NCBI GenBank assembly: GCA_018822845.1
Contig: JAHJJD010000094.1
Span: 1 to 46,541 of the forward strand
Length of the DNA: 46,541 bases
Direction: 5' to 3'
Source: Gammaproteobacteria bacterium
Lineage (GTDB): Bacteria > Pseudomonadota > Gammaproteobacteria > Thiotrichales > Thiotrichaceae
The translations under genes and the position numbers were made by a program. The notes beneath the pieces were generated by a model. It saw only the letters and a list, made by a program, of their open reading frames with translations, was not told where the DNA came from and made no database searches. Shown here in pieces: positions 23,664-25,294 of this stretch (within the stretch, counting starts at the first letter, position 1; every line of letters starts with the position of its first letter).

Positions 23664-23693
23664 TAAAAAACAAAGCCCCCGACGAACGGGGGC
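23664..23693 (-). terminator. Rho-independent terminator of the candidate small RNA
   Basis: Minus-strand stem GCCCCCG/CGGGGGC (pairs 23675-23681 with 23687-23693), loop of five, followed by TTTGTTTTTT. The T tract exists only in the minus direction, so it cannot be the mazG terminator. No minus-strand protein gene ends near it; ruvA stops 450 bp upstream. Confidence 0.75.
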
Positions 23694-23955
23694 AGTCAAC
23701 ACGGGCAAAAGTTATTATTATTGTGTTTATTGTTGTTGTTAGCTGGTTTGCATCTGCCCCTCTGGGGCTGCCCTCTGTGGTAAACCGATCCCCCTGCGGA
23801 CAGGGGGCTTCGTAGGGCAAGCAGCAACTTATTGTTATGATTGTTTATGGCTGCTTTCTGCCTCTTGGGCTTGCTGATAAATCTTTCCTTAACCCTTTCT
23901 TATTATTGTTGTCGTCCCTTGCAGACCTTCAAGTCTTTGCTGTCTCAGTCTGTGC
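23664..23955 (-). ncRNA. Candidate sigma-54-dependent small RNA with A-rich (AANAANAA) motifs, CrcZ-like
   Basis: About 290 nt, from the start predicted by the sigma-54 promoter (+1 near 23954) to the terminator. No open frame of note. In RNA sense it contains AACAATAATAAGAA (23895-23911), ATAAACAATCATAACAATAAG (split at about 23827-23849), and AACAACAACAATAA plus AATAATAATAA (23711-23741), separated by hairpins: AGACTT/AGGTCT (23923-23936), CCCCCTG/CAGGGGG (23790-23807) and GCCCC/GGGGC (23756-23768). Repeated AANAANAA motifs and a sigma-54 promoter are the known hallmarks of the Pseudomonas CrcZ/CrcY/CrcX RNAs, which titrate Hfq-Crc. Sequence homology to them is not claimed; similar design is. 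Confidence 0.6.
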
Positions 23956-23962
23956 AAGAGTT

Positions 23963-23981
23963 ACTGCAACCCTCGTGCCAA
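23963..23981 (-). promoter_or_regulatory. Sigma-54 (-24/-12) promoter
   Basis: Minus strand reads TTGGCACGAGGGTTGCAGT. It fits the sigma-54 consensus YTGGCACGrNNNTTGCW at every fixed position, with exactly 12 bp between the -24 G (23978) and the -12 C (23966). Predicted start near 23954. Nothing but the RNA described above lies downstream. Confidence 0.75.
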
Positions 23982-24008
23982 CTTCCAGTCTTGTTGCTTA
24001 AGATTGTG

Positions 24009-24039
24009 ATTTATATAATTTATTTTCAATTATATAAAT
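24009..24039. repeat. AT-only inverted repeat upstream of the sigma-54 promoter
   Basis: ATTTATATAATT (24009-24020) and AATTATATAAAT (24028-24039) are perfect inverted copies with a seven-base spacer. It lies between the promoter and the TGACA/TGTCA boxes, where bending DNA would help an enhancer-bound activator reach the polymerase. Confidence 0.6.
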
Positions 24040-24045
24040 TTATTA

Positions 24046-24146
24046 TGACAGGTTGGGAGGGGCGGGTTTTCTGTCAGAAAGTGACAAGATTGACAGTTTG
24101 CAGGCTGGTGAAGCCTGATAAGGTGACAATGTGACAGCTTGTGTCA
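24046..24146. promoter_or_regulatory. Cluster of TGACA/TGTCA boxes, possible enhancer (UAS) for the sigma-54 promoter
   Basis: Seven copies of TGACA or its complement: 24046, 24072, 24082, 24091, 24124, 24132 and 24142 (first base). Two pairs are 15-bp inverted repeats with N5 spacing: TGTCA-N5-TGACA (24072-24086) and TGACA-N5-TGTCA (24132-24146). They lie about 90-190 bp upstream of the predicted start, the usual distance for sigma-54 activators. The regulator is unknown. Confidence 0.5.
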
Positions 24147-24740: not shown

Positions 24741-25294
24741 GATTCTGTTCTCTTTCTCCCCTCTCCCCTTGGGGGAGAGGGGTTGGGGGTGAGGGGTGAA
24801 CTTGCCTGAATGCGGCTTTGCAAGTGACTGGCATGAGCATGGCACACGGCTACGGCCAGCGCATCCGCCGTATCCGCCTGCAAACGGCCATGCAGCCCCA
24901 GCAGGATTTTGACCATGTGCTGTACTTGAGCCTTGTCTGCGCCACCTTTGCCCACCGTGGCTTGCTTGACTTCCTTGGGGCTGTATTCGGCGACCGGCAA
25001 GCCGCAGGTAACGCCAGCGCAGATGGCTGCGCCGCGCGCTTGTCCCAGTTTTAGTGCAGAGGAGGCATTGTTGGAGACGAATACGCTTTCTATCGCCATT
25101 TCCTGTGGTTGGTATTGGCGAATGATGGCGCTAAGTTCGGTGAAAATAATGCCCAGCCGTTCGGGAAGCGGGGCATCGCCCAGCCGCAGGCAGGTGCTGA
25201 AAATGTGCCGGTTATGTTGCCCGTCGGTTTCAATAACCCCGACACCCGTCTGGCGGGAACCGGGGTCAATGCCAAGGATGCGGCGCAGTGCCAC
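24737..25294 (-). CDS. ruvC: Crossover junction endodeoxyribonuclease RuvC
   Basis: 185 aa, slightly longer than the usual about 173. Catalytic acids in LGIDPGS (Asp10), MAIESVF and [14 protein letters not shown] are present. It cuts Holliday junctions in the cytoplasm, with RuvAB. The last 17 residues, [20 protein letters not shown]-like, are encoded by a palindromic repeat (24756-24800) that replaced the natural C-terminus. It starts right at the yebC stop and overlaps ruvA. Confidence 0.95.
24756..24800. repeat. GC-rich palindromic repeat at the ruvC-ruvA junction
   Basis: Perfect 11-bp inverted repeat CCCCTCTCCCC (24758-24768) / GGGGAGAGGGG (24772-24782) with loop TTG, plus a flanking TTGGGGGTGAGGGG arm. 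The same type of element lies in priA. It encodes the end of RuvC. As RNA the hairpin could also lower or couple translation of ruvA, whose start is only about 16 bp further on. Confidence 0.75.

Follow-up and report, generated by a model that had tools for sequence, protein, structure and literature searches.

What lies between the 3' ends of ruvA and mazG in the window (the whole 46,541-nt stretch of DNA analysed here, from a Thiothrix-type sulfur bacterium), and what would it do? An earlier note, made from the letters alone, had proposed a CrcZ-like, sigma-54-driven small RNA locus. On the minus strand we found the layout of an RNA gene: activator boxes, an AT repeat, a promoter, a segment of about 290 nt and a terminator. 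The consensus -24/-12 promoter (TGGCACgagggTTGCA / TGGCACGAGGGTTGCA) was confirmed by sequence match at 23980-23965. A strict sigma-54 pattern gave 29 matches in the whole genome that contains the window, compared with 7 for the reversed control, and two of the 29 had at least three TGTCA/TGACA boxes within 220 bp upstream: the locus under study and another copy of its RNA (G000:C128:23093-23165). All seven boxes described before are present in a minus-strand array at 24146-24046 (starting at 24146, 24136, 24128, 24095, 24086, 24076 and 24050), the most upstream one overlapping the ruvA stop codon (24146-24144). Dinucleotide shuffles contain 0.55 boxes on average, and 0 of 2000 reach seven. 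Regarding the spaced pair TGACA-N5-TGTCA that the note had singled out, it does occur at 24146-24132, but the unit conserved among relatives is TGTCA-N5-TGACA (TGTCACTTTCTGACA, 24086-24072, minus strand), which comparison with those relatives led us to propose as a PilR site. The AT-only inverted repeat also proved to be there (24040-24009). It could be an IHF bend site; the strict IHF consensus that we used has no match at this repeat and is found in 23 of 69 promoters of the RNA family described below, against 1.7% of shuffles.

The RNA itself is predicted to span 23954-23664 on the minus strand (291 nt), with its start placed from the GC of the -12 element and its end at the U tract. In agreement with the claim that some 290 nt carry no protein frame, stops interrupt each of the three forward frames. 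The AANAANAA-type motifs, said to form three clusters, do so with nine overlapping copies; dinucleotide shuffles give a mean of 0.44 and a maximum of 6, with 0 of 2000 reaching nine, and a scan in 20-nt steps located the densest AANAANAA stretch of the window, on either strand, in this RNA. Three (ARN)n stretches with n of at least 4 are present, plus an A-rich loop. From 5' to 3' we read an (ARN)5 stretch in the leader (AACAATAATAAGAAA, 23910-23896); a type-B hairpin module (23876-23806; 44.8 bits, E 1.4e-7 with the covariance model R1, see below) made of an unpaired CAGCAAGCCCAAGA with one C fewer than most, a stem and the loop ATAAACAATCATAACAATAAG; an A-rich tail with two (ARN)4+ stretches (AACAACAACAATAAA ... 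AATAATAATAAC, 23740-23711); and the same-direction intrinsic terminator noted before (23693-23664), a hairpin with seven G-C pairs (23693-23675) followed by the U-rich tail TTTGTTTTTT to 23664. This copy hence combines one recognised module with long A-rich stretches in leader and tail. ARN motifs and a U-tract terminator are features of class II Hfq-dependent sRNAs, and both are found here. The overall folding only mildly beats that of shuffles (z -1.7, with equally good folding in 9 of 200), so that energy alone could not reveal structure.

The covariance and motif search of relatives that the earlier note had called for was run, and it showed that the promoter and the A-rich motifs are kept. 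At the DNA level, the locus had matches in 14 of 15 genomes of the same genus and in 20 of 57 relatives overall, the weakest being short and possibly due to chance. We built the covariance model R1 from 21 type-A modules; five type-B modules, including that of the window, lie outside this 21-row alignment and were recovered by the R1 search. R1 matched 56 of the 63 genomes of the GTDB family that holds Thiothrix and Thiolinea, in all eight of its genera (in NCBI taxonomy, Thiothrix belongs to Thiotrichaceae and Thiolinea to Thiolinaceae, two families of Thiotrichales). Fourteen genomes had one module match, 42 had two or more and seven had none. Matches in genera g7 and g8 are weak (E about 1e-6 to 0.01), so the RNA assignments there also lean on promoter and operator. 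In a 274-genome sample of the class, only the window's own genome and one other member of the family matched; this search and that of the 63 genomes were run with the stricter filters of Infernal, with which weak matches can be lost. A pattern scan of the named GTDB genomes returned 49 stretches, 13 of which match R1 at E <1e-6, all from Thiothrix or Thiolinea disciformis; of the others, 35 have no R1 match and one, from Flavobacteriaceae, is marginal (E 0.04). Among the Thiothrix species with copies are T. fructosivorans and T. lacustris. The RNAs that we read contain one to three modules each. Single-module RNAs lie elsewhere in the genomes, for example directly upstream of speA (arginine decarboxylase) in G001 (L026), and in genus g2 the RNA adjoins iscX (L056, L058). 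No Rfam family reaches its gathering score for the window, and relaxed thresholds gave only sub-gathering matches for the window and 18 related loci. One of these, to RF02800 (Rp_sR47), lies downstream of a module at L057:2173-2293 (39.7 bits against a gathering score of 60, E 9e-7). Nor did we find any publication on these RNAs, or on PilR-driven sRNAs, in the open-access literature. Judged by its sequence, the window RNA is a member of a new sRNA family that has no match in Rfam and is not CrcZ.

The unit of this family is a module of about 73 nt, in which an unpaired CAGCAAGCCCC(N)AGAG precedes a stem in two parts with a AUAAACAUUAAUAACAAUAA-like loop (AAUAAYAAUAA-type). From 69 loci given to it, the model search yielded 102 modules (92 distinct) and 75 sRNA loci; the G009 mazG-ruvA copy, G012:C48 and several places in g4, g7 and g8 are outside this set. 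Among the distinct modules, 95.8% of cells are paired. Changes on both sides affect 10 of the 11 pairs (7.8 on average in shuffles, with 10 reached by 30 of 500) and 167 cells (34 in shuffles; 0 of 500 reach 167), and the covariation score is 0.479, compared to 0.220 when shuffled and 0.040-0.084 in slid versions, in an alignment that favours the model because it was fitted to it. An unfitted MAFFT alignment of 21 modules has 97.3% of cells paired, four pairs with double changes (a number reached by 24 of 500 shuffles) and a covariation score of 0.292 against 0.193, with a number of pair types not above that of shuffles. One could argue that no RNA gene is involved and that the conserved DNA is an intergenic element or codes for a small protein, given that only 34 of the 102 modules contain, on their own, stops in all three forward frames. 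We consider this extremely improbable: it is at odds with the two-sided changes in nearly all pairs, with the conserved promoter before and terminator after the segment, with the stops that interrupt all forward frames of the RNA in the window and with module lengths that vary by one or two bases.

Does this RNA belong with CrcZ? It resembles CrcZ, CrcY and CrcX of Pseudomonas and Azotobacter in being a sigma-54-driven, untranslated RNA of a few hundred nucleotides with several (ARN)n stretches and upstream activator boxes, and in occurring more than once in some genomes. It differs from them in the operator shared with pilin genes, in its hairpin modules with a conserved unpaired 11-mer, and in its gene neighbourhood and bacterial order. 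The CrcZ model RF01675 scored 16.2 bits on the window (E 0.11; gathering score 95) and 19.4 bits (E 0.39) on the best of the 18 related loci. The CbrB subsites are TGTTAC / GTAACA (PMC6296734); the 220 bp that precede the -24 box contain no exact copy, and the nearest candidate is a TGTCAC box with one mismatch. A full-length Crc homologue, 41-47% identical, is encoded in 48 of the 63 genomes. The 11 homologues that we inspected, one per genome, all keep the active-site residues E, GDWN and SDH and miss R140, R196, R230 and F231, and the best PDB match is an exodeoxyribonuclease (2.7e-104, against 5.9e-73 for Crc); hence none of the 11 is a true, catalytically dead Crc. With the alignment and the PDB search pointing to an exonuclease with an intact active site, we dropped this homologue as support for an Hfq-Crc decoy, and we rejected membership in CrcZ on the Rfam score, the missing exact CbrB subsites and the absence of a true Crc among the 11. 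What stands of the CrcZ-like decoy that had been claimed is a conserved, sigma-54-driven, untranslated RNA with (ARN)n and AANAANAA motifs, and the suggested origin independent of CrcZ fits the low RF01675 score; the link to carbon catabolite repression is not supported, in view of the CbrB and Crc results.

Two other sigma-54-driven systems are worth comparing. Qrr1-5 of Vibrio are likewise multi-copy sRNAs with a conserved unpaired stretch. Their activator is LuxO and their known mode of action is base pairing to mRNAs, and in both respects the likeness ends. GlmY/GlmZ of enterobacteria share a sigma-54 promoter, TGTC...GACA activator sites and IHF. GlrR sites have the form TGTC-N10-GACA, whereas the spacing here is TGTC-N7-GACA, and neither RNA had a match among the Rfam results for the window and the 18 related loci.

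We then turn to the operator. A recognisable sigma-54 promoter precedes 69 of the 75 family loci; in the remaining six (L007, L050, L131, L144, L145 and L150) the search expression recognised none, and the operator counts leave them out; L007 shows a visible variant, TGGCACGAAGGATGCA. Compared with TGTCA-N5-TGACA, the closest site within 140 bp upstream is exact in 35 loci and differs at one position in 28, at two in five and at three in one, while letter shuffles gave 0/1380 exact matches and 3/1380 with one mismatch. The operator mostly starts 100-106 bp upstream of the -24 box. One locus, L139 (G008:C1:307500-312000), has an intact sigma-54 promoter and no TGTC/GACA box in the 140 bp upstream. 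By eye, its upstream DNA looks replaced, perhaps by an insertion. As a finder of the regulon we also tried TGTCA-N4-TGTCA and discarded it as too common, since it matched in all 16 genomes, with many chance sites among the matches listed.

Combining operator and promoter into a single pattern, we obtained 62 matches in 43 of the 63 genomes, across six genera, and none with the reversed control. There was no match in g2 and g6, where the sRNA operators mostly have one mismatch. Reading downstream, we assigned the 62 matches to 38 module RNAs (37 by R1 and one, L220, whose contig ends inside the module, by eye), 18 pilin genes, five A-rich RNAs upstream of ftsE and one contig end; the borderline assignments are L217, a module RNA at 31.7 bits, and L228, an ftsE-side RNA at 15.8 bits (E 0.07). 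Apart from the contig end, the only carriers of the pattern that are not RNAs are pilin genes. They come from three genera only (12 from Thiothrix, one from g3 and five from g5), and among the pilin promoters printed the operator is exact in five and, by eye, has one mismatch in three. Within the window's genome the pattern matches exactly twice, at one pilin gene and at the sRNA described here. G020 and G060 possess the RNA and yielded no PF00114 pilin. The ftsE-side RNAs (L227-L231 in G026, G032, G073, G074 and G075, genus g7), whose neighbouring FtsE scores above the NCBIfam cut-off, have the same operator and sigma-54 promoter and are A-rich, with 7-10 AANAANAA each. That they keep these motifs without CAGCAAGCCCC hints at a shared function residing in the A-rich part. 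In these RNAs a AUUAAUAAUAAAAAUAA-type stretch seems to lie within a stem-loop.

Since pilin genes carry the same operator and promoter, the activator of the window RNA is likely PilR-like and not CbrB, which agrees with the idea that the RNA is wired to an activator other than that of CrcZ. In the window's genome, a PilS-like kinase gene is followed by a PilR-like gene (L098), and in G017 the pilS-, pilR- and pilA-like genes are contiguous, the pilin gene with the pattern directly following the pilR-like one. NCBIfam gave no model above cut-off for four EBPs or the PilS-like kinase, and we take the names PilS and PilR from resemblance and from gene neighbours. Two PilR-like activators are encoded in the window's genome, L096 (G000:C12) and L098 (G000:C34), and a PilS-like neighbour was seen for L098 only. 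An older consensus for PilR sites is a CTGTC repeat. The hallmarks described in P. aeruginosa are a NifA-like TGT-N11-AGA with nearby GTCT elements (PMC6058289), so TGTCA-N5-TGACA as a PilR site is defined by our comparison rather than by the literature, in which a further search on PilR sites turned up nothing of use.

In that case, could some other sigma-54 activator that shares the operator with the pilin genes drive these RNAs, which would be real all the same? We regard this as unlikely. Among eight small or distant genomes sampled from other genera, seven encode a PilR-like EBP (best match L098; six with GSFTGA and G016 with GSFSGA) and six an NtrC-like EBP, missing in G073 and G079, so that co-occurrence favours PilR by one genome only, G073, which has the PilR-like EBP and no NtrC-like match. 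This reading covered all but two of 32 EBP matches, those two having no locus, and L184 resembles L099. In favour of another activator, G079 (96% complete) keeps operator and promoter and has, at E 1e-25 or better, a single EBP, which is NtrX-like and without GAFTGA; the two PilR-like proteins of the window's genome and the spread of NtrC-like EBPs point the same way. Against it, the pattern is found beyond the RNAs at pilin genes only, and in G017 at one that adjoins pilR. As for individual candidates, an NtrX-like activator is disfavoured, the GAFTGA loop being missing in the window's genome, G073, G079, G060 and G022; an NtrC-like one is only slightly less widespread than a PilR-like one; and GlrR misfits by the spacing of its site.

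What would a PilR-induced, A-rich RNA do? Hfq is encoded in 60 of the 63 genomes, and that of the window's genome has Y25, L26, I30, L32, Q33, Q52 and T61, seven residues with roles in ARN binding according to one study (PMC6422490). Besides the ordinary Hfq, some g5 genomes, such as G019, G030, G077 and G079, encode another, diverged one (about 66-72 bits). CrcZ is described as having six (ARN)n stretches, binding the distal face of Hfq and titrating it (PMC4063720). What the sequence shows here is an RNA family, covariation in its modules, conserved promoter and operator, an operator shared with pilin genes and an Hfq with ARN-binding residues. Our preferred reading, to which we give a probability of roughly 0.6, is a modular RNA induced by PilR and sigma-54 that titrates Hfq, CrcZ-like in action without being a homologue of CrcZ. 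A PilR-like regulator, with a PilS-like kinase as partner, would bind TGTCA-N5-TGACA, possibly helped by DNA bending at the AT-rich stretch, and would turn on both the sRNA and pilA, the pilin gene. The (ARN)n stretches, displayed by linkers and hairpin loops, would fit the distal face of Hfq, and an abundant sRNA occupying Hfq could relieve or redirect its translational control, as CrcZ does in Pseudomonas. We infer transcription, activation by PilR, Hfq binding and titration, with pilA mRNA as a plausible beneficiary, given the AAYAAYAAGG found at its ribosome-binding site in most cases.

Hfq binding is also compatible with another role. The RNA might be a base-pairing sRNA of class II with several seeds, holding the distal face of Hfq by ARN and the proximal one by its U tail, in which the CAGCAAGCCCC of each module pairs with mRNAs and additional modules or copies increase the dose, in the manner of the multi-copy Qrr RNAs. 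This is possible, though we lean against it. GCAAGCCC is present in 78 of the 92 distinct modules and the full 11-mer CAGCAAGCCCC in 57, the element stays unpaired and strongly conserved over eight genera between stems that covary, and the short single-module copies with their own terminators resemble ordinary sRNAs. The ftsE-side RNAs, on the other hand, are A-rich without it, and no likely target came up: among the matches listed for the exact complement GGGGCTTGCTG in 16 genomes of the genus, there was no start-proximal site shared by orthologues (20 sites outside the RNAs, in four genomes, exact 11-mers only), and many of the sites that we read lie inside coding stretches such as Gly-Leu-Leu. 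As modelled, CAGCAAGCCCC is strongly conserved and unpaired, more than a pure decoy needs; it might act as a seed, bind a protein or take part in a tertiary contact.

Titration could also concern a different RNA-binding protein, for instance CsrA through the GGGA and AAGGA of the 5' leader, with the A-rich loops acting as spacers. In the window, AAGGGACGA ... GUUAAGGA flank the first A-rich stretch (leader, 23920-23884) and are kept in many mazG-ruvA copies; these GGA motifs could bind CsrA, and by eye GGGACGA and GGGUUAAGGA-like motifs surround the first A-rich stretch in many such copies. They are confined to the leader, however, and were not seen in the short copies that we read, whereas 91 of the 92 distinct modules have AANAANAA within the loop part. 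We consider titration of another protein very unlikely.

Returning to Hfq titration, AAYAAYAAGG occupies the ribosome-binding site in 15 of 18 pilin leaders, a figure that reflects conservation and not 15 independent cases, because the pilin genes are orthologues. The (ARN) stretch of the pilin leader is short (n=3). AANAANAAGG occurs within 30 nt upstream of 0 of the 53 window ORFs, which are frames of at least 150 aa counted from the first ATG and not curated genes. A search of the open-access literature returned nothing relevant on a link between Hfq and pilA mRNA. Taken together, these observations suggest, though they fall short of showing, a loop in which PilR would both raise pilA mRNA and lift Hfq off it. 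Extended to the whole group, this would become a coherent feed-forward loop: PilR would drive pilA and the modular Hfq sponges, the sponges would release other mRNAs and that of pilA, at its (ARN)3 ribosome-binding site, from Hfq, the pilin inventory sensed by PilS would set global Hfq activity, and base pairing by CAGCAAGCCCC would be a further output, each module then acting as decoy and seed at once. We put this extended version forward only tentatively and regard it as doubtful.

In Pseudomonas and Azotobacter, Hfq sponges under sigma-54 control are already known and act in carbon catabolite repression, and PilSR is usually viewed as a controller of pilin levels. The RNAs described here have the operator and sigma-54 promoter of the PilSR-pilA regulon, and a PilS-like/PilR-like pair is encoded in the window's genome; a regulatory RNA as a member of that regulon is where they depart from what we found in the open-access literature. 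A control site shared with the main pilus gene suggests that pilus control is linked to Hfq-based gene control. If our reading is true, Hfq titration would have a second origin, in a family unrelated in sequence and wired to a pilus regulator, and PilSR would gain a route to post-transcriptional control. Besides, RNAs with one, two and three modules offer a natural series for relating the number and spacing of ARN loops to sponge strength.

Finally, the neighbouring ruvC-ruvA junction (24744-24796 of the window) holds a palindromic element rich in G+C (CCCCTCTCCCC/GGGGAGAGGGG) that resembles a dispersed repeat, and a stretch similar to it lies downstream of the promoter match in L073.
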